Below, in pieces: positions 40,205 to 54,028 of a DNA stretch of 54,028 nucleotides. The stretch is taken from positions 1-54,028 of the forward strand of contig NZ_CAINTR010000051.1 in NCBI RefSeq assembly GCF_903853455.1, given 5' to 3'. Each line of letters begins with the position of its first letter. The first letter of the stretch is position 1. The DNA comes from an uncultured Magnetospirillum sp. Its GTDB lineage: Bacteria > Pseudomonadota > Alphaproteobacteria > Rhodospirillales > Magnetospirillaceae. Position numbers and translations under genes: made by a program. The notes beneath the pieces are model-generated. The model was given only the letters and a program-made list of their open reading frames with translations, was not told where the DNA came from and did not search any database.

Positions 40205-43200
40205 GTGCGCCATGGCTTCGTCGGCTGTTCCGCCAATCGTCCGTCCCATTTGTCGCGGTGCAGTGACCGTCGCGCGCCTTCCGCGTCGCGCTGCCACGTG
40301 AGTAGGCACGCGAGAGCCAACGACTGCGAAGCCGAACGCGCCGGATCGGGCTTCAAGGATCTCGTTCGCCGCGCCCTCGGACGCCCGAGACGCAAGTCGC
40401 CCTGGAACAGCACCGCCCCCATCCGGGGCGAACTCTTCAGTGTCGAGCGCATCGAGGAACATGCGCGCAGCTTGGCCCATGCCCAGCCGGTAACGCCAAG
40501 GCCGACCAAGGGCCGTCTGCTGGCGGGCCGGCTGGCCGAAAACGCCGCCGTGCTGCTGGTCTCGCATCGCACCATCGCCAAGGCTATCGACGAGGGCAGC
40601 ACGACCACCCCGGCGGCGGAATGGCTGGTGGACAACTACCATCTCGTCGAGCGGCAGATCCAGGACATCCTGTCCGACCTGCCGCCCCACTATTACCGGC
40701 AGTTGCCCAAGCTTGCCGACGGACCGTTCAGCGGATATCCAAGGGTACTCGGCGTGGCCTGGGCCTTCGTCGCCCACACCGACAGCCGCTTCACCCCCGA
40801 GATGCTGTGCCGCTACGTCCGGGCCTACCAGGACGTCCAGCCGCTGACCATCGGCGAGTTGTGGGCCCTGGCCATCACCTTGAAGATCGTGCTTATCGAG
40901 AACCTGCGGCGCCTCGCCGAGGAGCTGGTGCGCAATCGTTCCGCCCGACAGAGGGCGGACGCGGTCGCCGACCGACTGCTGGGATCCGGCGACCACGCCG
41001 CCGAGCCCGTTCCCGCCGTGCTGACGGATCACGAGCAGGCGCCGCTGGCGGATGCCTTCGCGGTTCAGCTGGTGTACCGGCTGCGGGATCAGGACCCTCG
41101 GGTGACTCCGGCGCTGACTTGGCTTGACCATCGTCTGACGGCGCAGGAAACCACGGTCGACGCGGTGGTCCGGGACGAACACCAGCGGCAGGGCGCCGCC
41201 AGCGTCACCGTCCGCAACATCATCACCAGCATGCGTCTGATCTCCGACGTCGATTGGACCGAACTGGTCGAGCGCATCAGCCTCGTCGACGACGTGCTGG
41301 CCACCGGCAGCACATTTTCCGGCATGGATTTCCCGACCCGCAATCTCTATCGCAGCGCCATCGAGTCCTTGGCGCGGGGGTCGAACCAAACCGAGATCGA
41401 CATCGCGCGCGCCGCCGTCGCCGCCGCGACCGCCGCGATTCCGGCCGAGCCGAGCCCAGCCGACATCCGTCTGGGCGATTCCGGCTACTATCTCCTCGCC
41501 GGAGGACGGCGCGCCTTCGAAGCCATGATCGGCTACCGGCCGTCGGCGCGCGCCTGGCCCGGACGCCTGAACCGTGCCTGCGGCATCGGCGGCTATGTGG
41601 CGGCCGTCACCGTCGTCACCGCCATCCTTCTCGCCGCCCCGTTGTTCGCCCTCACGGCGGCCGGGCTCGGCCACGCCTGGATCGGCCTGCTCGGCGTCCT
41701 CGGCGCGATCCCCGCCGTCGACGTGGCGGTAGCGCTGGTCAACCTCGGCGCCATGCGGGGCTTTGGAGCGGCGCTGATGCCCGCCCTGGAGCTTCGCGAC
41801 GGCATCCCCTCCCATCTCCGTACCCTGGTCGCGGTGCCGACGCTTCTGACCACCCCGGAAGCGATCGAGGAGCAGATCGAGCGCCTTGAAGTTCATTATC
41901 TCGCCTGTCCGGAAGGCGACCTTGTTTTCGCCCTGCTCTCCGATTGGCTCGACGCCACCAGCCAACAGGCGGAGGGCGACGAGGCTCTCCTCGCGGCGGC
42001 GGCGGCGGGCATCGCCCGCCTCAACCAGCGCCACGGCCCCGCTCCGGGTGGCGAGCGCTTCGTGCTGCTTCATCGCCGCCGGGTCTGGAACGAGGGCGAA
42101 AGGCGGTGGCTGGGATGGGAGCGCAAGCGCGGCAAGCTGCACGAGCTGAACCGGCTGCTGCGCGGCGCCACCGACACCACCTTCGTAAGCATCGATGGAC
42201 AGCCGCCCGTGCTGCCCGAGGATGTTCGCTACGTCGTGACCCTGGACGCCGACACCAGACTGCCCCGCGACACGGTGCGCCGTCTGATCGGCAAGATGGC
42301 ACACCCCCTCAACCGGCCCCGGTTCGACGCCACGGTCGGCCGGGTGGTGGAAGGCTACGCGGTGATGCAGCCGCGGGTCACGCCATCGCTGCCGGTCGGC
42401 CGGGAAGGCTCGCTGTTCCAGCGCACCTTCTCCAGCATGAACGGCATTGATCCCTATGCCTCCGCCGTTTCCGACGTGTATCAGGATCTGTTCGGCGAAG
42501 GCTCCTACACCGGCAAGGGCATCTACGACGTGGACGCCTTCGAGGCCGCCCTCGCCGGTCGCGTCCCGGATTCGACGCTGCTCAGCCACGATCTGTTCGA
42601 GGGCGTGTTCGCCCGTGCCGGCCTCGCCTCCGACATCGAGGTCGTCGAGGAGTTCCCCGCCCGCTACGACGTGGCCGCGCTTCGCCACCATCGCTGGGCG
42701 CGCGGCGATTGGCAGTTGCTGCCGTGGCTGCTGGGCCTGAGGTCGCCGAAGGGCATGGAACGGGCGTGCCGCGCCATTCCCGCCATCGGCCGCTGGAAGA
42801 TGCTCGACAATCTGCGCCGCACCCTCTCGGCGCCGGCGGCGATCCTGGCGTTTCTGGCGGGATGGACCTTTCCGTTCCAAGACGCGCTGATCTGGACCTC
42901 CTTCATCCTGGCGACACTCGTGCTGCCGCCCCTGATTCCGGTGGTGGGCGCGATCATCCCGCGCCGGGGCGGGATTACGCCGGACAGCCATCTGCGCGCC
43001 CTCGGCTGCGACATCCGTCTGGCGCTGACCGTCTCGGTCATGCAGGTCGCCTTCCTGGCCCATCAGGCGTGGCTGATGACCGACGCCATCGGACGAACCC
43101 TCACCCGGTTGTTCGTCACCCACCGCCATCTGCTCGAATGGGTGACGGCGGCCCAGGCGTCCATCGGCGCCCGCCTCGATCTTTTCGGCTTCACCCGCCG

Positions 43201-46200
43201 CATGGCCAGCGCGCTGGTCATCGGCGTCCTGGCCCTGGTCGTCGCCGGGTTCTCCCGGCATGGCACTTGGCCGCTGGCGGCGGTCTTCGCGGCGCTGTGG
43301 ATCGCGTCGCCGGCCATCGCGCGGCTTGCCAGCCTGTCCCCCCTCGTCGCCGGCCGGCTGCCCATATCGGCTGCCGACGCCCACGCCTTGCGGCTGACCG
43401 CGCGCCGAACCTGGCGGTTCTTCGAGAGCTTCGTGACGGCGGCCGACAACATGCTGCCACCGGACAATTTCCAGGAAGACCCGCTGCCGGTCCTGGCCCA
43501 TCGGACCTCCCCCACCAATATGGGCCTCTATCTCCTGTCGACGGCGACCGCCCGCGATTTCGGGTGGACGGGATCGACCGAGGCGACCGAACGGCTGGAA
43601 GCGACCTTCGCCACCATGGGCCGCCTCGCCCGCTTCCGTGGCCACTTCTACAACTGGTACGACACGCAGGATTTGCGACCGCTCGACCCCTGTTACATCT
43701 CCTCGGTCGATAGCGGCAATTTGGCTGGACACCTGATCGCCCTGGCCAACACGTTCCTGGAGTGGAGCGATCAGCCCCTCGCCGATGCGACGCGCCTGGC
43801 CGGCATCGCCGACGCGCTCGAGCTTGCCCGCGAGGAAGCCGCCCGCCTGAACGACGGACGGCGGACCCAGACGGTGACCTGGCACCAGCTCGACGACGCG
43901 CTCGCCGCCGTGGCGGCCGACGTCGAACGGGCGCCTCTGCACGGCGAGACCATCGCCGAACGCCTGTCGGGACTGGCCGCCCAGGCCGAGACCACGGCCG
44001 ACATCGCCCGCGCCTTGGCCAGCGAACGGGACGACGACGTCGGCGACGACATGCTGTTCTGGGTGGAGGCCACCCGGCGTTGCATCGAGAGCCACCGCGC
44101 CGACCTCCGGCCGCCGGCGGACGCCGCCTCGGGGCTGGAGGCCCGCCTGTCGGCCCTGGAAGCGACCGCGCGGGCGACCGCGCTCGGCATGGAATTCGGC
44201 TTCATGCTCGACCCCGACCGCAAGCTGCTGTCGATCGGGTACCTGATGACCGAGGGAACGCTCGACCCGAGCTGTTATGACCTGCTCGCCTCCGAGGCAC
44301 GGCTGGCCAGCTTCATGGCCATCGCCAAGGGCGACATTCCGGCGCGCCACTGGTTCCGGCTCGGCCGTACCGTCACACCCATCGCCCACGGCGCGGCGCT
44401 GATCTCGTGGTCGGGATCCATGTTCGAATACCTGATGCCGTCGCTGGTCATGCGCGCGCCGCTGGGAAGCCTGATCGAACAGACCAATCGTCTGATCGTA
44501 CGGCGCCAGATGGATTACGGGCAGACCCTCGGGGTGCCGTGGGGCATTTCGGAATCGGCCTACAACGCCCGCGACCTGGAATTCACCTACCAATATTCCA
44601 ACTTCGGCGTCCCCGGTCTCGGGTTGAAGCGCGGCCTCGGCGACAATGCCGTCATCGCGCCCTACGCTACGGCGCTGGCAACCATGGTCGATCCGCTGGC
44701 GGCGGCCCGGAATCTTGATCGCCTCGCCGAGATCGGCGCACGCGGCCGCTACGGCTTCTACGAGGCCCTCGACTACACGCCGGCCCGGGTGCAGGCGAAC
44801 AATGGCGTCGCGGTGGTCCGCGCCTTCATGGCGCACCATCAGGGCATGACCATCGTCGCCATCGCCAATGCGCTGCTGGACGGGGTGATGCGGACACGGT
44901 TCCATGCCGAGCCCATCGTCCAGGCGACGGAATTGCTGTTGCAAGAGCGCACGCCGCGCGACGTGGCGGTCGCCCGCCCCCTGGTCGCGGAGGCAAGGAC
45001 GACCACCAAGGTCCAGGAGATCGAGGCGCCCGGCGGCCGGCGGCTGACCACCGCCCATGGCGCGACCCCCGCCACCCACCTGCTTTCCAACGGACAATAC
45101 ACGGTGATGCTGACCGCCGCCGGCTCGGGCTACAGCCGCTGGCGGGATCTGGCGGTGACCCGGTGGCGCGAGGATGCCACCTGCGACGACTGGGGCTCCT
45201 ACATCTTCCTGAGAGACGTCCATGGCGGCGGCGTATGGTCGGCGGGGTTCCAGCCGAGTGGTGCCGAGCCCGAGTCCTACGAGGTCGTCTTCGACGAGGA
45301 CCGCGCCGAATTCATCCGCCACGACGGAACCCTGACCACCACCATGGACGTGGTGGTCTCGACGGAATACGCCGGCGAGGTTCGCCGCGTCTCGGTGGTG
45401 AATTCGGGCAACCGCATGCGCGAGATCGAGATCACCTCCTACGCCGAGCTGGTCCTGGCCCCCCAGGCCGGCGACATGGCGCATCCAGCCTTTTCCAAGC
45501 TGTTCGTCGAGACCGAATATCTCGCCGATGTGGGCGTCATCCTGGCGACGCGGCGGCGACGGACGCCGAACGAGCCCGAGATCTGGGCCGCGCATCTGGC
45601 CGTCGTCGATGGCGAAGCGGTGGGCAAGCCGGAGATCGAGACCGACCGGGCCCGTTTCCTCGGCCGTGGCAGCGGGATCCGAACCCCCATCGCCATGATC
45701 GACGGCCGGCCGCTGTCGCAGACCGTCGGCACGGTGCTCGATCCGATCTTCGCCCTGCGCCGCCGCGTGCGCGTCGCGCCGGGGGCCATGGTCCGCGTCT
45801 CCTTCTGGACCATGGTTGCGCCGACCCGCGAGGCGGTGCTCGACCTCGCCGACAAGCATCGCGACGTCACCGGCTACGAACGGGCTGCCATGCTCGCCTG
45901 GACCCAGGCGCAGGTGCAGCTTCACCACCTCGGCATCGACCGGGGCGAAGCCAGCCTGTTCCAGCGCCTTGCCGGGCACGTCCTCTATGCCGCCCCCACC
46001 TTGCGCTCGTCGTCCGAGACCATCCGGCGCGGTGGCGGCAGCCAGCCGGGACTCTGGCCACAAGGCATTTCCGGCGACCTGCCCATCGTGCTGCTGCGCA
46101 TCTCCGACACCGAAAACCTCGCGGTGGCGCGGCAATTGGTCCAGGCTCATGAATACTGGCGGATGAAGCAGCTTGCCGTCGATGTCGTCATCTTGAATGA

Positions 46201-48916
46201 TCGCGCCTCCTCCTATGTCCAGGACCTTCAGACCGCGCTGGAAACCCTGGTCCGCCTGAACCAGTCCCGGCGGCGGGTTCAGGTGGAGGGGGGGCAGGCA
46301 GGCCGAATCTTCATCCTCCGGGCCGATCTGATTTCGGCGGATATGCGCGCCCTGTTGTTGTCGGTGGCACGGGTGGTGCTGATCGGCCAACGCGGGCGGC
46401 TGTCCGACCAGCTCGACCAGGCCCCGGAAGCCAAGTCCCCGATCCGGTTCCCGACGCGACGCATGTTCGCCGGGCCACAGCTGCAGGTCCCGTTCCCCCT
46501 GCCGACGCTCGAATTTTTCAACGGACTTGGCGGCTTCGCCGATTCCGGGCGTGAATATGTGACGGTTCTGCGCCCCGGCCAATCAACGCCGGCCCCCTGG
46601 ATCAACGTCGTCGCCAACCCGGTGTTCGGCTTCCAGGTCGCCACCGAGGGAAGCGGCTACACCTGGTCCGGCAACAGCCGCGAGCATCAGCTTACCCCCT
46701 GGTCCAACGACCCGGTCGCCGACCGTCCGGGCGAGGCGTTCTATGTGCGCGACGACGACACCGGCGACCTGTGGAGCCCCACCGCCCTGCCGATCAGGGA
46801 CGAAACCGCCACCTATATCGCTCGCCACGGCCGCGGCTACAGCCGGTTCGAACTGGCGGCGCACGGGATCGAATTCGCGCTTCTCCAATATGTGCCTTTG
46901 GAAGACCCCATCAAGATCTCGCGGCTCAAGCTCCGCAACACATCGGGCCGCACTCGCCATCTTTCGGTGACCGCCTATGTGGAATGGGTGCTTGGCCCGT
47001 CCCGGTCGGCGTCGGCGCCGTTCGTGACCACCGAGATCGATTCCGACACCGGGGCGATGTTCGCCCGCAACCCGTGGAATTCGTCGTTCGGGTCGCGCGT
47101 CGCCTTCATGGATTTCGGCGGCCGCCAGACAAGTTGCACCGCCGACCGGCGGGAGTTCATCGGCCGCAATGGAACCCTGGCGCGGCCGGCGGCGCTGGCC
47201 GGCACGGCGCGGCTGTCGAACAGGGTTGGGGCGGGCCTCGATCCCTGCGGCGCGCTGCGGACCACGGTTGAGCTTCCGGCCAACGCCGTCATGGAGGTCG
47301 TCGTCTTCCTCGGCGAAGCGGAAACCGCCGAAGGCGCGCGGATCTTGATCGAACGTTACCGCACCGCCGATCTCGACGCGGTCCGGGCCGATGTCGAGCG
47401 GTACTGGGACAAGATCCTGGGTGCCGTCCAGGTGAAGACGCCCGACCGGTCCATGGACATCATGCTGAACGGCTGGCTGCTCTACCAGACGCTGGTCTGC
47501 CGGATCTGGGCCCGCTCGGCGTTTTATCAGGCCAGCGGAGCCTATGGTTTCCGCGACCAGCTTCAAGACGGAATGGCGATGGCCACGTCGAGCCCCGAGA
47601 CCACCCGCGCCCATCTGCTGCGGGCGGCGGCACGACAATTCGTCGAGGGCGACGTCCAGCATTGGTGGCTGCCCCATTCCGGCCAGGGAGTGCGGACCCG
47701 CATCTCCGACGACCGCATCTGGCTCCCCTACGCGGTGGCGCATTATGTCGAGACGGTCGGCGACGCCGTCGTCCTCGACACCGCGATCCCCTTCCTGGAA
47801 GGCGAGTGGCTGGCGGCCGGCCAGCACGACAGCTTCTTCCTGGCGCCGGTTTCCGACGAGACCGCCACCTTGTTCGAGCACTGCGCCCGCGGCCTCGACC
47901 AAAGCCTCCTGCTCGGACTCCATGGGCTGCCGCTGATGGGAACCGGCGACTGGAACGACGGGATGAACCGGGTCGGAGAGGGCGGCCAGGGCGAGAGCGT
48001 CTGGCTCGGCTGGTTGCTCTACGCGACCTTGACCGCCTTCGCTCCCCTCGCCGACGCCCGCCACGAGACGGTCCGCGCCACCACATGGCGCGCCCATGCC
48101 GCCGTGCTGCGGGCATCGCTGGACCGCGAGGCTTGGGACGGCGACTGGTACCGGCGCGGCTGGTTCGACGACGGCACCCCGCTCGGCTCGGCCGTGAGCG
48201 AGGAATGCCGGATCGACTCCATCGCCCAGTCCTGGGCGGTGCTGTCGGGTGGAGCGGAGCCCGAACGGGCCGGCCGCGCCATGGCGGCGGTGGAGCGGGA
48301 GTTGATCCGGCCCCAGGACGGGCTGGCGCTGCTGTTCGCGCCACCATTCGACAAGACCTCCCTGGATCCCGGCTACATCAAGGGCTATCCGCCCGGCATC
48401 CGCGAGAACGGCGGCCAATACACCCATGCCGCCTTGTGGTCGGTCATGGCCTTCGCGGCACTGGGCGAGGGCGACAAGGCGGCCGCCCTGTTTTCGCTGC
48501 TCAACCCCATCAATCATGCCCGCACGCGGGCGGGGGTACACCGCTACAAGGTGGAACCCTATGTGGTCGCCGCCGACGTCTACGCGACGGCGCCCCATCT
48601 GGGGCGCGGCGGCTGGACCTGGTACACCGGCTCGTCGGGATGGATGCAGCGCGCCGGGGTGGAGAGTGTTCTCGGGCTGCGGCTGCACGGCGGGATCCTG
48701 CATCTTGATCCCTGCATCCCCACGGCATGGCCGGGCTTCGAGATCACGCTGCGACACGGTTCGGCGCGATACGAAATTCTGGTCGAAAATCCCACCGGCG
48801 CAGGGCGAGGCGTCGCCTTCGCCGCCATGGACGGCGCGGAGGTCTTGGAGCGTCCGTTGCGCCTGCGGCTCGCCGACGACGGCGCCCCCCACCGGTTGCA
48901 GGTGCGGCTCGGATAA
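40205..48916 (+). CDS. Cyclic beta-1,2-glucan synthase (NdvB/ChvB type)
   Basis: This giant inner-membrane enzyme of about 2900 residues builds cyclic beta-1,2-glucan from UDP-glucose. Membrane segments are near residues 463-520, 877-918 and 998-1040. The GT84 glycosyltransferase has LDADTRLPRDTV (about 678) and HHRWARGDWQ (about 830). Glycoamylase-like regions follow (NWYDTQDLRPLDPCYISSVDSGN, about 1165; PWGISESAYN, about 1450). The C-terminal GH94-like part with TGDWNDGMNRVG (about 2580) sets chain length. Length is close to rhizobial and Brucella homologues. The GTG at 40205 is tentative: the first 60 codons are Cys/Arg/Ser-rich and atypical, and no ribosome-binding site stands out. No transporter gene (ndvA) is adjacent. 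Confidence 0.93.
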   Translation: MRHGFVGCSANRPSHLSRCSDRRAPSASRCHVSRHARANDCEAERAGSGFKDLVRRALGRPRRKSPWNSTAPIRGELFSVERIEEHARSLAHAQPVTPRPTKGRLLAGRLAENAAVLLVSHRTIAKAIDEGSTTTPAAEWLVDNYHLVERQIQDILSDLPPHYYRQLPKLADGPFSGYPRVLGVAWAFVAHTDSRFTPEMLCRYVRAYQDVQPLTIGELWALAITLKIVLIENLRRLAEELVRNRSARQRADAVADRLLGSGDHAAEPVPAVLTDHEQAPLADAFAVQLVYRLRDQDPRVTPALTWLDHRLTAQETTVDAVVRDEHQRQGAASVTVRNIITSMRLISDVDWTELVERISLVDDVLATGSTFSGMDFPTRNLYRSAIESLARGSNQTEIDIARAAVAAATAAIPAEPSPADIRLGDSGYYLLAGGRRAFEAMIGYRPSARAWPGRLNRACGIGGYVAAVTVVTAILLAAPLFALTAAGLGHAWIGLLGVLGAIPAVDVAVALVNLGAMRGFGAALMPALELRDGIPSHLRTLVAVPTLLTTPEAIEEQIERLEVHYLACPEGDLVFALLSDWLDATSQQAEGDEALLAAAAAGIARLNQRHGPAPGGERFVLLHRRRVWNEGERRWLGWERKRGKLHELNRLLRGATDTTFVSIDGQPPVLPEDVRYVVTLDADTRLPRDTVRRLIGKMAHPLNRPRFDATVGRVVEGYAVMQPRVTPSLPVGREGSLFQRTFSSMNGIDPYASAVSDVYQDLFGEGSYTGKGIYDVDAFEAALAGRVPDSTLLSHDLFEGVFARAGLASDIEVVEEFPARYDVAALRHHRWARGDWQLLPWLLGLRSPKGMERACRAIPAIGRWKMLDNLRRTLSAPAAILAFLAGWTFPFQDALIWTSFILATLVLPPLIPVVGAIIPRRGGITPDSHLRALGCDIRLALTVSVMQVAFLAHQAWLMTDAIGRTLTRLFVTHRHLLEWVTAAQASIGARLDLFGFTRRMASALVIGVLALVVAGFSRHGTWPLAAVFAALWIASPAIARLASLSPLVAGRLPISAADAHALRLTARRTWRFFESFVTAADNMLPPDNFQEDPLPVLAHRTSPTNMGLYLLSTATARDFGWTGSTEATERLEATFATMGRLARFRGHFYNWYDTQDLRPLDPCYISSVDSGNLAGHLIALANTFLEWSDQPLADATRLAGIADALELAREEAARLNDGRRTQTVTWHQLDDALAAVAADVERAPLHGETIAERLSGLAAQAETTADIARALASERDDDVGDDMLFWVEATRRCIESHRADLRPPADAASGLEARLSALEATARATALGMEFGFMLDPDRKLLSIGYLMTEGTLDPSCYDLLASEARLASFMAIAKGDIPARHWFRLGRTVTPIAHGAALISWSGSMFEYLMPSLVMRAPLGSLIEQTNRLIVRRQMDYGQTLGVPWGISESAYNARDLEFTYQYSNFGVPGLGLKRGLGDNAVIAPYATALATMVDPLAAARNLDRLAEIGARGRYGFYEALDYTPARVQANNGVAVVRAFMAHHQGMTIVAIANALLDGVMRTRFHAEPIVQATELLLQERTPRDVAVARPLVAEARTTTKVQEIEAPGGRRLTTAHGATPATHLLSNGQYTVMLTAAGSGYSRWRDLAVTRWREDATCDDWGSYIFLRDVHGGGVWSAGFQPSGAEPESYEVVFDEDRAEFIRHDGTLTTTMDVVVSTEYAGEVRRVSVVNSGNRMREIEITSYAELVLAPQAGDMAHPAFSKLFVETEYLADVGVILATRRRRTPNEPEIWAAHLAVVDGEAVGKPEIETDRARFLGRGSGIRTPIAMIDGRPLSQTVGTVLDPIFALRRRVRVAPGAMVRVSFWTMVAPTREAVLDLADKHRDVTGYERAAMLAWTQAQVQLHHLGIDRGEASLFQRLAGHVLYAAPTLRSSSETIRRGGGSQPGLWPQGISGDLPIVLLRISDTENLAVARQLVQAHEYWRMKQLAVDVVILNDRASSYVQDLQTALETLVRLNQSRRRVQVEGGQAGRIFILRADLISADMRALLLSVARVVLIGQRGRLSDQLDQAPEAKSPIRFPTRRMFAGPQLQVPFPLPTLEFFNGLGGFADSGREYVTVLRPGQSTPAPWINVVANPVFGFQVATEGSGYTWSGNSREHQLTPWSNDPVADRPGEAFYVRDDDTGDLWSPTALPIRDETATYIARHGRGYSRFELAAHGIEFALLQYVPLEDPIKISRLKLRNTSGRTRHLSVTAYVEWVLGPSRSASAPFVTTEIDSDTGAMFARNPWNSSFGSRVAFMDFGGRQTSCTADRREFIGRNGTLARPAALAGTARLSNRVGAGLDPCGALRTTVELPANAVMEVVVFLGEAETAEGARILIERYRTADLDAVRADVERYWDKILGAVQVKTPDRSMDIMLNGWLLYQTLVCRIWARSAFYQASGAYGFRDQLQDGMAMATSSPETTRAHLLRAAARQFVEGDVQHWWLPHSGQGVRTRISDDRIWLPYAVAHYVETVGDAVVLDTAIPFLEGEWLAAGQHDSFFLAPVSDETATLFEHCARGLDQSLLLGLHGLPLMGTGDWNDGMNRVGEGGQGESVWLGWLLYATLTAFAPLADARHETVRATTWRAHAAVLRASLDREAWDGDWYRRGWFDDGTPLGSAVSEECRIDSIAQSWAVLSGGAEPERAGRAMAAVERELIRPQDGLALLFAPPFDKTSLDPGYIKGYPPGIRENGGQYTHAALWSVMAFAALGEGDKAAALFSLLNPINHARTRAGVHRYKVEPYVVAADVYATAPHLGRGGWTWYTGSSGWMQRAGVESVLGLRLHGGILHLDPCIPTAWPGFEITLRHGSARYEILVENPTGAGRGVAFAAMDGAEVLERPLRLRLADDGAPHRLQVRLG

Positions 48917-50284: not shown

Positions 50285-50398
50285 AAGGGACCGAAGGGGC
50301 GTCGTCGCCGGTTCACAGACGGGCACGATGGAGCTATAACCTCTCTAAGAACAAGCGGTGGTCAGGCCTTGCGGAGTTCCCGAGGGAGCGCGGTTTCG

Positions 50399-51871
50399 AT
50401 GCTTTTGCCGATTACTATCGACAAGCTGAGCTCCGTGTCGTTTCAGGAGCAGATCGCAGAGCAGCTTCGGCGCTTTATCCTGGAAGGGTTGCTGGTGCCC
50501 GGCACGCGCGTGCCCACATCGCGCGAACTGGCACGCCAGGCCGGCCTGTCCCGCAACACCGTCACCTTGGCCTATGAGCGCCTGATCGGCGAAGGCTATC
50601 TCCAGACCCGCCCGGCCTCGGGCACGTTCGTCGCCGAGGTGTTTTCCAACCCCGACCTGGCGCTTCCGGCGGCGGCACGGCCTGAGGCCAGCCTCGGCGG
50701 CATCCCCCGGCGACCGGTGGTGTTCAGCGGCCAGGCATGGCCCCGCCTGACGGCCAAGCCCGAGTTCGACTGCAGACTGTTCTCCGCCGACCCATCCATA
50801 TTCCCCACCCGGGAGTGGCGCCGCCACATCCTGTCGGCGCTCGAACACCACGGCGGCCGCATGGGCAACACGCCGCCGCCGGCGGGCGAGCAGAAGTTGC
50901 GGCACGCCATCGCCCGCTGGCTGAGCGCATCCCGCGGGATCACCGCCACCGCCGACGACGTGCTGGTGGTCGCGGGTCGGCAGCAGGCCTACAACATCGC
51001 GGCCCAACTGCTGCTGCGCCCCGGAGACGGCGTGGTGGTGGAGGCCCCTTGCAACTTGAACGCCGCCCTCGTTTTCGAGGCGGCCCAAGCCAATCTGCTG
51101 CCGGTGCCGGTGGACGAGCGGGGAATCCGCCCCGACCTGCTCCCGTCCGGGCCGGCGCTCGCCTACCTCACCCCATCCCATCAAAGTCCGGTGGGCGGCA
51201 CGCTGCCGTTGGATCGGCGCGAGGCGGTCCTCGCCTGGGCCCGCGCCAACGGCACCTACCTGTTCGAGGACGACATCGGCTGCGAATTTCATTACGACGG
51301 ATGGCAGCCGCCGTCGCTCAAGAGCATGGACCGGAATGGGCTGGTGATCTATTGCGGCAGTTTCACCCTGACGCTGGGCGCGGGGCTGCGCCTGGGCTAC
51401 ATGGTGCTGCCGCCGGAACTGGCGTCCGCCGCCCTGGCCGCCAAGACGCTGCTCGACAACGGCTGCCCCTGGCTGGAGCAGGCGGCCTTGGCCAACCTCA
51501 TGGAAACCGGCAACTTCGCCCGCCACGTCCTCGGCACCAAGAAGCTCTATCAGGAGCGCCGGGATCGTCTCGTCGAAGCCCTCCTGCAACGGTTCGGCGC
51601 CGCCACGGTCATCGGCTTCGAGGCCGGAACGCATGTGGGCCTGCGCCTGCCCGAGGGCTTCCCCGACGCGGCGACGATCCAGCAGAGCGGCGCCGAGCAG
51701 GGGATCGCCATCCATGCCGCCCCCGCCTGCTCGTTCGATGCCGCCGCCGACCACCGCTATCGCCAGCGCACCCTTTATCTGGGCTACGGCGCCCTACCCG
51801 TCGAGCGGATTCCGGCCGCCGTCGACCAACTTGTCGCCGTGATAGAAAACTTGGCTCCAGCCTTCGCGTAG
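50399..51871 (+). CDS. MocR-family (GntR-aminotransferase) regulator lacking the PLP lysine
   Basis: The 490-residue protein has an N-terminal GntR winged helix (FQEQIAEQLRRFILEGLL, PTSRELARQAGLSRNTVTLAYERL) and a fold-type I aminotransferase domain. The stretch normally reading GSFSKTL, whose Lys binds PLP, is GSFTLTL here: Leu324. The EDDYD motif is EDDIG, so the Tyr contacting PLP is Ile293. Thus the effector domain probably cannot form an internal aldimine. The rest (LTPSHQSPVGGTL, GLRLGYMV) is well kept, so it is not a decayed gene. The ATG at 50399 follows CGAGGGAG. It stands directly upstream of the cytochrome cluster and probably regulates it. Confidence 0.85.
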   Translation: MLLPITIDKLSSVSFQEQIAEQLRRFILEGLLVPGTRVPTSRELARQAGLSRNTVTLAYERLIGEGYLQTRPASGTFVAEVFSNPDLALPAAARPEASLGGIPRRPVVFSGQAWPRLTAKPEFDCRLFSADPSIFPTREWRRHILSALEHHGGRMGNTPPPAGEQKLRHAIARWLSASRGITATADDVLVVAGRQQAYNIAAQLLLRPGDGVVVEAPCNLNAALVFEAAQANLLPVPVDERGIRPDLLPSGPALAYLTPSHQSPVGGTLPLDRREAVLAWARANGTYLFEDDIGCEFHYDGWQPPSLKSMDRNGLVIYCGSFTLTLGAGLRLGYMVLPPELASAALAAKTLLDNGCPWLEQAALANLMETGNFARHVLGTKKLYQERRDRLVEALLQRFGAATVIGFEAGTHVGLRLPEGFPDAATIQQSGAEQGIAIHAAPACSFDAAADHRYRQRTLYLGYGALPVERIPAAVDQLVAVIENLAPAFA

Positions 51872-51923
51872 CGACCCGAAACAGGGCAACTGGCTCCATT
51901 AAATTTCTGTCATCTGGCTCTAC
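51850..51923 (+). promoter_or_regulatory. Direct repeats CTGGCTC upstream of the cytochrome cluster
   Basis: CTTGGCTCCAG (51850), ACTGGCTCCAT (51889) and TCTGGCTCTAC (51913) are direct repeats 39 and 24 bp apart, ending 67 bp before the tetrahaem cytochrome start. The first lies in the end of mocR. MocR regulators usually bind direct repeats of this size. ATGGAGCTA (50328-50336), before mocR, is a one-mismatch inverse copy. Confidence 0.45.
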
Positions 51924-51989: not shown

Positions 51990-52601
51990 ATGCAAAATTC
52001 CGGTTCCACGCCGTGCCGGGGCAAAGTGATGGGAATGATTCTCTGTCACAAAGCCAAGATTCTTTGTGCCGCCGGCTTCTTCATCGCCGGCATTATTTTT
52101 TGGGGTGGCTTCAACACGGCAATGGAAGCGACCAATACGCTGGAATTCTGCATCTCCTGCCATGAGATGAAGGACACGGTGTACCAGGAGTATACCAAGA
52201 CTATTCACTACTCGAACCGCACCGGCGTCCGCGCCGTCTGCTCCGACTGCCATGTGCCGAAGTCTTGGATCTACAAGATGATTCGTAAGGTCCAGGCCAG
52301 CAACGAGGTCTACCACAAGCTCCTGGGGACCGTGGACACGGTGGAGAAGTTCGACGCGCACCGCCTGGAACTGGCGACCCATGTCTGGGAAACCATGAAG
52401 CGCACCGACTCGCGTGAGTGCCGCAACTGCCACTCCTTCCAAGGCATGAATGCCGAGATGCAGCGGCCCCGTGCCCGCGCTCAGCATGAAGACGCGCAGA
52501 AGACCGGCCAGACCTGCATCGATTGCCACAAGGGCATCGCTCACAAACCCGTACACAAGCTTCTGGAGGCCCCGGCCCCCACCAGCTTCGACATTCAATA
52601 A
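51990..52601 (+). CDS. Tetrahaem c-type cytochrome, NapC/NirT/CymA family
   Basis: The 203-residue protein has one N-terminal membrane anchor (about 22-41) and four CXXCH sites: CISCH (54-58, followed by EM as in NapC/NrfH/CymA), CSDCH (84-88), CRNCH (144-148) and CIDCH (176-180). The family takes electrons from membrane quinol and hands them to periplasmic partners. The ATG at 51990 has GGGGGA six bases upstream; a second ATG at 52029 is less likely. It is followed after 17 bp by a haem-binding protein and then by a decahaem cytochrome, so it is likely the quinol-side entry (or exit) of that chain. Confidence 0.92.
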   Translation: MQNSGSTPCRGKVMGMILCHKAKILCAAGFFIAGIIFWGGFNTAMEATNTLEFCISCHEMKDTVYQEYTKTIHYSNRTGVRAVCSDCHVPKSWIYKMIRKVQASNEVYHKLLGTVDTVEKFDAHRLELATHVWETMKRTDSRECRNCHSFQGMNAEMQRPRARAQHEDAQKTGQTCIDCHKGIAHKPVHKLLEAPAPTSFDIQ

Positions 52602-52618
52602 GATTGGAGGATTCGATA

Positions 52619-53548
52619 GTGAGAGCCTCGACCGCCGCCACCGTCCTGATTGGGCTTCTGGCCGCCACCCCCGCCTTCGCCGTCGACTGGGCCAAGGTGC
52701 CCGGCAAGGACGTCACGCTGATGTATCCGGGTCAGTCCTCGTACGAGTGGGTTCTGACTCCCTCCGAGCATTCCGGTGGGTTCAAGATCCGCGAGGGCAA
52801 GAATTGCCACGAGTGCCACACCGGTGAAGAAGACACCATGGGCAACCTGCTGGTGTCCGGTAAGAAGAACGAGCCGGCCCCCATCGCCGGCAAGCCCGGC
52901 TTCGTGAAGGCTTCCGTCAAGTTCGCCCACGACGACAAGAACATGTACGTCCACCTGGACTTCGCCCCGGGCACCCAGCCCGACGCCAAGATGGATGCCG
53001 CCAACGAGACCAAGGTCACCATGATCATCAACGACGGCGGCGTCGCTGAATCGAACCGGTTCGGCTGCTGGGCCGCCTGCCACGACGACGCGGCGACCAT
53101 GCCGAGCGCCGCCGGGGCCGAGCGGACCAAGTATCTGCTGAAGACCCACGCCAAGGTCGGCCGCCAGGGTGGCGGCGACGAGCTGAAGCCGGCCGACGAG
53201 TTGGCCAAGCTGAAGGCCGCCGGCTACGAGCTCGAATACTGGCAGGCTCGCCTCAACCCCGGCGCCAAGGCCGTGGCTGTGGCCGGCACCATCTTCGACA
53301 AGCGCGAAGAGCTGAAGACCTCGGCCGTGACCGCCGACGCCACCTTCGCCGGCGGCGCCTGGTCGGTGACGCTGACCCGGCCGCTGGTGGCCGGTGCGCC
53401 CTACAAGGATCTGGTGGCGGGCAAGACCTACACCATCGGCTTTGCCATCCATGCCGGCCACACCGCGCGCCGGTTCCACTACGTGTCGTTCGAACGCACC
53501 TTGGTCCTCGACCAGGGCGCCGGAGATTTCGTCGCGACCAAGCAGTAG
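52619..53548 (+). CDS. Periplasmic haem protein with ethylbenzene-dehydrogenase-gamma-like domain
   Basis: The 309-residue protein starts at GTG 52619 after GGAGG and has a signal peptide cleaved near residue 21 (PAFA-VDW). A classical haem site CHECH is at 63-67. The body is a beta-sandwich haem-binding domain of the EBDH-gamma/DMSO-reductase-associated type, with VKFAHDDKNMYVHLDF and FGCWAACHDDAATMP. The second cysteine motif is CWAACH (150-155), that is CX3CH, an unusual spacing. It probably shuttles electrons in the periplasm between the tetrahaem and decahaem proteins. No catalytic molybdenum subunit is visible here. Confidence 0.82.
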   Translation: MRASTAATVLIGLLAATPAFAVDWAKVPGKDVTLMYPGQSSYEWVLTPSEHSGGFKIREGKNCHECHTGEEDTMGNLLVSGKKNEPAPIAGKPGFVKASVKFAHDDKNMYVHLDFAPGTQPDAKMDAANETKVTMIINDGGVAESNRFGCWAACHDDAATMPSAAGAERTKYLLKTHAKVGRQGGGDELKPADELAKLKAAGYELEYWQARLNPGAKAVAVAGTIFDKREELKTSAVTADATFAGGAWSVTLTRPLVAGAPYKDLVAGKTYTIGFAIHAGHTARRFHYVSFERTLVLDQGAGDFVATKQ

Positions 53549-53560
53549 AGTTTGACCATT

Positions 53561-53605
53561 GCGGGGCCCGGGGAATGGGCCCCGCATTCGGCCATCTGGC
53601 CGAAT
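53561..53605 (+). terminator. Two adjacent perfect hairpins between cytochrome genes
   Basis: GCGGGGCCC (53561-53569) pairs with 53577-53585, and immediately after it ATTCGGCCA (53586-53594) pairs with 53597-53605. Neither has a U tract. They may be a partial terminator or an mRNA-processing site that sets different levels for the two cytochromes. Confidence 0.55.
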
Positions 53606-53623
53606 AACGAGGGGGTAAGATTG

Positions 53624-54028
53624 ATGAAAGCACGAACCTGGCTCTTGAGCCTTGTGTGCTGCGCTGCGTTCCTTTTTTCGGGAATCATCGCCGCTGACGC
53701 AGCCGATACTCCGACGGCGCCAGCAACAGGGACGGCCGCCGTTTCTGATGAAGCGGCACCGACAGCCGAGCCGGTCTATGCCGCGCGCGGCGCAGACTCT
53801 TGCATGCGTTGTCATGACAAGGGCACGCCGCTGAACATTCTGAAGACCGTGCATGCGATGACGGGCGACGCGCGTACGCCGTTCGCGCAGCACGCCTGCG
53901 AAACCTGCCACGGCGCCAGCCCCACCCATATGGGCACCCCGCCGTCTCCCGGCGGACGTCGCGTTTCGCCGACCGTGGTGTTCAAGGGCGACCGCAAATC
54001 GTCGCCCGAGGCCATCAACAAGGTGTGC
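53624..54028 (+). CDS. MtrA/DmsE-family multihaem cytochrome, 5' part (runs off window)
   Basis: The first 135 codons are present, with an ATG at 53624 and GAGGGGG upstream. A signal peptide (MKARTWLLSLVCCAAFLFSGIIAADA) precedes an Ala/Pro/Thr-rich linker. Then come haem sites CMRCH (60-64) and CETCH (92-96); the last residue in the window is Cys135, probably starting a third site. The spacing and wording (ILKTVHAMTGDARTPFA...ACETCHGASPTHMG) match DmsE/MtrA/PioA-type decahaem proteins, which sit in an outer-membrane porin and carry electrons across it. A porin gene (mtrB/dmsF type) would be expected next. Confidence 0.85.
   Translation, partial: MKARTWLLSLVCCAAFLFSGIIAADAADTPTAPATGTAAVSDEAAPTAEPVYAARGADSCMRCHDKGTPLNILKTVHAMTGDARTPFAQHACETCHGASPTHMGTPPSPGGRRVSPTVVFKGDRKSSPEAINKVC

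Follow-up and report, generated by a model that had tools for sequence, protein, structure and literature searches.

A predicted MtrC-less MtrAB conduit with a NirT-NirB-type quinol module at the end of a Magnetospirillum contig

The window analysed here is a stretch of 54,028 nucleotides from an uncultured Magnetospirillum sp., which makes up contig NZ_CAINTR010000051.1 (C51) of a 5.18 Mb genome in 223 contigs, position 54028 being the contig end. In its final 2 kb, a NapC/NirT (CymA-like) tetrahaem gene, a gene for an EB_dh-domain haem protein (here EBc) and the 5' part of mtrA follow one another on the forward strand (Table 1). It is likely that this locus encodes the half of an MtrC-less MtrAB conduit that lies in the inner membrane and periplasm, with a NirT-NirB-type quinol module, as suggested by the protein families, the haem motifs, the gene order, a porin on both possible continuations of the contig, and conservation among relatives. 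What we infer from these data is the sequence in which electrons are handed on, a periplasmic site for EBc, flow towards the outside and the acceptor: electrons would pass from inner-membrane quinol to the NirT/CymA-like tetrahaem protein, from there to EBc acting as a periplasmic NirB-type cytochrome c-552 (c-552) carrier, then to decahaem MtrA held within the MtrB porin, and finally to a cell-surface acceptor, which may be Fe(III), humics or another extracellular oxidant.

Gene order at the contig end and beyond it

An earlier note, made from the sequence alone, had described a CymA/NapC-type, an EBDH-gamma-like and an MtrA/DmsE-type gene in a row at this place, and the row is borne out by coordinates, Pfam and TIGRFAM matches and haem motifs, with the family match and the four CXXCH motifs in Table 1 confirming the first product as a tetrahaem protein. 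This product has a hydrophobic stretch at its N-terminus (by eye). Although it matches TIGR02161 at 7.1e-80, it scores under the cut-offs of this model and of the NapC and TorC models, and is thus assigned at the level of the NapC/NirT family domain only. It is not the napC of the nap operon of this genome, which is a separate copy on contig C41 with 63% identity. Chance haem motifs were also ruled out, because all seven CXXCH motifs in window open reading frames (ORFs) of at least 100 aa fall in the three genes, four in the cymA/nirT-like gene, one (CHECH) in EBc and two in mtrA. The reading frames of all three genes are open.

The mtrA piece in the window aligns with positions 1-73 of the 258 of TIGR03508 (E = 1.5e-12, the fragment scoring under the cut-off) and shares 52.6% identity with residues 1-134 of the intact MtrA of a relative (L038, genome G002; 334 aa, 10 CXXCH). 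Most likely, the contig stops inside mtrA at an assembly repeat (Table 1). The first 141 bp are identical between contigs C53 (27171 bp) and C159 (6648 bp), and an assembler k-mer of 141 (MEGAHIT) would account for shared ends of this length. Both C53 and C159 open inside mtrA, matching TIGR03508 positions 107-257 over the cut-off (E = 4.2e-60 and 4.6e-60; in a control, 3 of 14 named genomes matched, none over the cut-off), and each 3' part holds six CXXCH motifs. Directly after mtrA, both contigs encode an MtrB_PioB porin (PF11854, E = 1.5e-93 and 4.3e-94; control, 2/14 matched, none over the cut-off), which on C159 also scores over the cut-off of TIGR03509, and mtrB is followed on both by a gene for a small secreted-looking protein.

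Compared with the L038 MtrA, the C53 and C159 pieces correspond to residues 168-334, leaving 33 residues between them and the window piece. Because two CXXCH motifs are seen in the window and six beyond it, and because the ten-motif L038 protein leaves this 33-residue gap, MtrA is expected to carry ten haems, the last two presumably lying in the gap. Two arrangements may be considered: C51 may run into C53, whose far end, bearing a 5'-truncated mtrA, would run into C159; or C51 may run into C159, with C53 closing on itself. Neither mtrA 3' part and neither mtrB gene is interrupted, so the window genes should lead into an open mtrA-mtrB pair whichever contig follows. The MtrA/DmsE-type reading of the third gene is upheld by TIGR03508 on its 5' part (under the cut-off) and on both 3' parts (over the cut-off), and neither of the other outcomes envisaged in the earlier note, a third gene with far fewer than ten haems or a periplasmic reductase without a porin downstream, is the case.

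It is very unlikely that the locus is rearranged and partly decayed, with the 5'-truncated mtrA and the integrase-bearing C53 marking a broken copy and the window genes perhaps not forming a working conduit. The mtrA piece at the C53 end does run into a stop codon immediately ahead of the 141-bp repeat, C53 bears integrase-like genes (by eye), and the EBc frame is interrupted in the related genome G008, but both mtrA 3' parts, both mtrB genes and the window genes are all open.

The mtrA-mtrB pair occurs twice in this genome, and the C53 and C159 mtrA 3' ends, identical over their first 141 bp, are 86% alike over 959 bp. C53 also carries, by eye, integrase-like, ParA-like, primase-like and Rpn-like genes as well as the 5'-truncated mtrA at its end, and may be an island or circular element bearing a conduit copy; a tRNA scan of C53 and C159 found none, hence no integration site was read. 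In G008, a complete relative of 4,967,148 bp, the EBc frame before MtrA-MtrB is interrupted (L048, C1:3259074-3260004) while MtrA and MtrB are open. The gene for the secreted-looking protein after mtrB stands at 2786-3136 of L035 and 8606-8950 of L038 and occurs in the nearest relative too; the 117-aa product of the L035 copy drew no match from Pfam at 0.01 and a single one, at chance level, from NCBIfam.

The earlier note had also proposed looking beyond position 54028 for a surface cytochrome or a DmsA-type reductase. A TIGR03507 search of the whole genome for MtrC/OmcA gave nothing over the cut-off, its one match (E = 3.8e-4) falling inside the C159 MtrA piece, and no DmsA-type reductase was recognised by eye downstream of mtrB on C159 or in the filtered C53 ORF list, no genome-wide DmsA search having been made. 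The proposed quinol-to-outer-membrane conduit thus stands as regards its quinol dehydrogenase, MtrA-type cytochrome and MtrB/PioB porin; a surface cytochrome of the MtrC/OmcA kind over the cut-off was not found.

Table 1. Features of the window around the three haem-protein genes
Feature	Position	Strand	Description
MocR-type regulator (GntR helix-turn-helix + aminotransferase domain)	50369..51871	+	PF00392 1.5e-15, PF00155 7.5e-18; directly upstream
Three direct TGGCTC[CT]A repeats	51852..51922 (from 51852, 51891, 51915)	+	candidate MocR sites
cymA/nirT-like	51990..52601	+	203 aa, 4 CXXCH; Pfam Cytochrom_NNT PF03264 E=8e-72
EBc	52619..53548	+	309 aa, GTG start behind GGAGG; EB_dh domain PF09459 E=6.7e-33 (on a slightly longer ORF beginning 52595)
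mtrA 5' part (DmsE/MtrA-family decahaem cytochrome)	53624..54028	+	135 aa, 2 complete CXXCH, stops at contig end
141-bp exact repeat	53888..54028	+	equals last 141 bp of contig C53; assembly breaks there

EBc as a NirB-type cytochrome and its relatives

EBc contains a CXXCH motif at residues 63-67 and a CX3CH motif at residues 150-155. Both motifs, together with H278, R285 and H287, are invariant in 54/54 sequences of a hand-chosen alignment of the window and 53 of 80 relative loci (27 omitted). An AF2 model of the protein (pLDDT 87.1, pTM 0.85) was matched by Foldseek best to 2ivf_C, the gamma chain of EBDH (E = 1.3e-9, TM 0.42/0.58), and next to 7b04_C, subunit C of nitrite oxidoreductase (1.4e-6), both of which share the EB_dh fold at moderate TM-scores (0.38-0.58). 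Together, motifs and model give EBc the EB_dh fold, with two probable c haems. Of the EBDH-gamma-like haem protein in the earlier note, the fold is thus retained and the haem-b gamma subunit is given up: as a gamma subunit of EBDH or of a type II DMSO reductase, EBc reached 22.7 bits against a TIGR03477 cut-off of 169.85, and as EBDH gamma 22.7 against 400 for the ebdC model. Unlike EBDH gamma, it has two motifs for covalently bound haem, which go with NirB or c-552, known from nirS-nirT-nirB nitrite respiration, and no molybdenum enzyme was recognised beside it.

NirT has been described as a tetrahaem and NirB as a dihaem cytochrome, encoded beside nirS in Stutzerimonas and fused as NirTB in Halomonas (PMC13086519). 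Because relatives of EBc adjoin or are fused with NirT near nirS, matching this description, we identify EBc as a putative NirB-type c-552, based on its EB_dh family, its c-haem motifs and its partnership with NirT, the NirB type itself being known by description only.

The relatives are the best 80 of 191 from a scan of genome contigs, in which neighbours were labelled by BLAST to chosen reference genes, ORFs were called mechanically and other neighbours were named by eye. In the 35 closest (L058-L092), MtrA was found in 26 loci, MtrB in 24 and a NirT-like gene in 23, and 17 loci had NirT, EBc, MtrA and MtrB in this order on one strand, including L067 with another ORF call between NirT and EBc and L091 with two EBc. 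No nirS-family match and no NirT-EBc fusion was seen in these 35 Mtr-type loci. The other 45 (L093-L137) contained neither MtrA nor MtrB (0/45), while 39/45 had a nirS-family match (nirS or paralogues) and 30/45 an ORF joining NirT and EBc; the nirS-linked loci compared show the same EB_dh family and haem motifs as the window EBc, and one nirS representative matched solved cd1 nitrite reductases at 2.5e-218. In the EBc tree (54 rows), a branch with support 99 separates 26 Mtr-linked from 17 nir-type rows, one of which, L115, was labelled on its fusion alone, and this split needs a single state change. In a search of 72,556 plasmid records, EBc matched five, which share 36-41% identity with it and bear NapC/NirT names, as fused types do; a fused NirT-EBc protein found chiefly NapC.

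Some further features of these loci were noted. Magnetospirillum-like genomes, among them those of L041, L062, L065 and L072, have an EBc of the Mtr side adjoining the gene of a two-CXXCH cytochrome in divergent orientation, and no MtrB match was found in the three such genomes checked, those behind L062, L065 and L072. Close to the conduit locus of L058, L070, L073, L074, L079 and L081, genes were read by eye as cytochrome c maturation-like (CcmF and CcmG, joined in some by CcmI). The gammaproteobacterial L091 and L090 have a second, longer EBc-like protein in the gene run (456 and 509 aa), with EB_dh confirmed by Pfam in L091 only.

A search for MtrB at E 1e-10 or better had matches in 43 genomes out of 317 from the order, in 6 out of a class sample of 385 and in 26 out of a phylum sample of 398; all three counts include the window genome, and no control genome matched (0/14). 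EBc was then searched in the 73 distinct MtrB-bearing genomes, 43 in the order and 30 outside. Within the order, EBc lies upstream of MtrB on the same strand, 0.6-1.6 kb apart, in 25/43 and within 8 kb in 29/43, with seven weak or fragment rows left out of the distance count, the window genome counted as a miss (its locus being split over contigs) and G008 as a match despite its interrupted frame. Outside the order, the EBc-MtrA-MtrB arrangement was found in 1/30.

The window genome has a single EBc, on C51, and a nirS homologue away from it on C57, with 66% identity to the nirS of L053. The locus resembles the nirS-cluster NirT-NirB in that a dihaem partner comes after a tetrahaem protein of the NapC/NirT kind, a pair for which fusions are known (PMC13086519), whereas the pair here adjoins mtrAB with nirS on another contig, the Stutzerimonas NirB being compared by description. 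By its position the NirTB-like pair appears tied to the conduit, and nirS could be served as well. With the CymA/MtrCAB system of Shewanella it shares a CymA-like quinol dehydrogenase, MtrA and MtrB; in contrast to that system, no MtrC scores over the cut-off and EBc takes its place in the operon. The MtrA of L038 matched chain A of 6r2q at 3.1e-74, an entry that is MtrAB of Shewanella baltica according to PMC10654088 and whose chain carries another molecule name in the database copy used. MtoAB-CymA and PioABC likewise have an MtrAB-type pair without MtrC, with CymA in Mto corresponding to the CymA-like gene here, but EBc sets the present locus apart from both, and the window MtrA lacks the long N-terminal extension of Rhodopseudomonas PioA, its first haem lying near residue 60.

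Placement of EBc and direction of electron flow

The earlier note had set the EBDH-gamma-like carrier outside the known Mtr, Mto and Pio sets and proposed a variant pathway. A variant it is, yet not a wholly unreported one: Gagen et al. 2019 described c-552-MtrA-MtrB in a goethite-reducing Telmatospirillum metagenome-assembled genome (MAG) and proposed the c-552 to be extracellular, in the place of MtrC (PMC6933298). That operon is like the present one in having the dihaem c-552, MtrA and MtrB in a row, without MtrC/OmcA, in an alphaproteobacterium, and the same paper names MtrA/MtrB homologues in Magnetospirillum magneticum and Skermanella stibiiresistens. Compared by description, it differs in that its NirT/CymA homologue lies in a nitrate-reduction operon, whereas here the NirT-like gene is directly upstream and a periplasmic carrier is favoured.

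Several observations would suit an EBc acting, as Gagen et al. proposed, as an extracellular terminal reductase that substitutes for MtrC on the outer face of MtrAB, and several of them also weigh against a periplasmic linker. The order EBc-MtrA-MtrB mirrors MtrC-MtrA-MtrB, a localisation program put the Telmatospirillum c-552 outside the cell (PMC6933298), and the window genome has no MtrC over the cut-off. Six loci (L063, L076, L080, L089, L138 and L183) have EBc directly before MtrA with no NirT-like gene called, on the stretch read, which is short upstream in some, and L048, L077 and L140 carry a heptahaem gene instead of NirT, which would also fit an MtrC-like role. Moreover, among the 72 rows of an MtrA set partly chosen for EBc, a large multihaem neighbour (at least 400 aa and at least 8 haems within 6 kb) accompanies EBc in just one of 30 EBc-linked rows (L059, 435 aa), with EBc alone in 29 rows, the large neighbour alone in 16 and neither in 26.

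The haem domain of NirT faces the periplasm, and MtrC and OmcA are lipoproteins. The fusion of EBc homologues to NirT in the nir-type clade (30/45 loci) hence speaks for the periplasmic side and against the surface, as do the N-termini of 47 EBc (duplicates included), which are plain secretion signals with a lipobox pattern in three, by eye never at the cleavage site. Furthermore, of 12 genomes whose EBc locus is free of MtrA/MtrB, 9 lack an MtrB match, a count on which genome completeness may bear. L111, L132 and L133 among the 12 are on the nir side; the other nine, on or beside the Mtr side (L069 lying outside the tree), lack it in 7/9, and these seven include three Rhodopila MAGs in which EBc adjoins NirT. 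In six loci EBc is not directly before MtrA, and there its neighbour belongs to the quinol side or is multihaem: NirT in L084, L173 and L174, a heptahaem gene in L142, and in L060/L139 a set of tetrahaem, iron-sulphur (FeS) and NrfD proteins, which Pfam confirmed for L139 alone and which L061 shares by sizes. On these sequence comparisons, a periplasmic EBc carrier is more likely than a surface one; we regard a conduit with EBc as its periplasmic linker as quite likely and an extracellular EBc reductase as unlikely. In L139 (5892-8762), and by sizes in L061, tetrahaem, FeS and NrfD-type membrane proteins occupy the place of NirT, resembling a swapped quinol module.

If EBc is the linker of such a conduit, electrons would probably flow outward. 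MtrAB without MtrC is, however, also the make-up of the Fe(II)-oxidising Pio and Mto systems, so that the current might instead run inward, as has been proposed for Mto and Pio, with MtrA-MtrB receiving electrons from Fe(II) or some other donor outside and handing them via EBc and the NirT-like protein to the quinone pool. One system of this kind, with CymA cast as the quinone reductase, is reportedly that of Sideroxydans. This inward route is supported by MtoAB and PioAB being likewise MtrAB without MtrC (PMC8805035), by the proposal of CymA as quinone reductase in such a system (PMC6295460) and by lists that credit Magnetospirillum and Telmatospirillum with components of pio/mto (PMC10654088). 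Against it, the NirT-NirB relatives serve nitrite reduction, an outward, quinol-oxidising use, and the sole published phenotype found for a locus of this type comes from an enrichment that reduces Fe(III) (PMC6933298), leaving inward flow fairly unlikely in our view.

Further points tell against the proposed conduit as a whole. The route rests on sequence comparison, mtrA is split over contigs, and its join to mtrB is drawn from the repeat with two continuations possible. In the EBc tree, the Mtr label set against all other rows needs five changes, because the Mtr side also includes three rows beside a two-CXXCH cytochrome and five with neither partner seen. In the MtrA tree (four duplicate rows removed beforehand; mtrA more than 400 bp from a same-strand mtrB left out), the EBc label needs nine changes, at least three of them forced by starred branches. 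Because of these five and nine label changes, the partnership of MtrA and EBc appears to have changed more than once; no single clean MtrA clade for the EBc type was seen, the deepest forks being weak.

Upstream regulator and wider meaning

Directly upstream of the haem-protein genes lies a MocR-type regulator gene, and three direct repeats are seen in the same region (Table 1). Members of a BLAST cluster that takes in the MocR-position gene of L085, the nearest relative, occur in 17 of the 35 Mtr-type loci, the window protein standing outside the clustering and membership being taken as clustered, with some members not directly upstream. Across 13 relatives, 3.9 kb of sequence lying upstream of cymA holds six copies of a relaxed form of the repeat motif, picked after the fact (1.5/kb over a background of 0.16/kb), which is present in only 5/13, so the repeats are weak candidates for MocR sites. 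Elsewhere in the window, a 2903-aa open frame at 40205-48916, cyclic beta-glucan synthase-like by eye, forms no part of the finding.

In the literature covered, which includes few subscription papers, we met no text that equates the c-552 next to MtrAB with the NirB of NirT-NirB, or that makes c-552-MtrA-MtrB the usual form in this order; PMC9732548, consulted for this arrangement, had none of the terms looked for. A survey of MtrCAB demanded mtrC in the cluster and for this reason passes over the EBc type (PMC8805035). The middle protein seems, from its sequence relatives, to be kin to a cytochrome of nitrite respiration that was recruited to an extracellular electron wire. More tentatively, and with less than even confidence, we propose that such loci could form a class of their own among conduits without MtrC, its periplasmic hub being a dihaem c-552 of the NirB type, with a CX3CH site, that would link MtrAB to exchangeable quinol oxidoreductases of the NirT type, the tetrahaem/FeS/NrfD type and perhaps the heptahaem type. 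If so, the principal MtrAB system of this Rhodospirillales-like order would be of this class, the published idea of the c-552 as a surface reductase there would be overturned, and one carrier family might serve both nitrite respiration and extracellular respiration. Should the proposed conduit be right, the placement of the c-552 in the periplasm or at the surface, so far a published proposal, would become directly testable with one protein, and a group of Alphaproteobacteria (Paramagnetospirillum-like, Telmatospirillum and Acetobacteraceae) would gain a defined, testable route of extracellular respiration.

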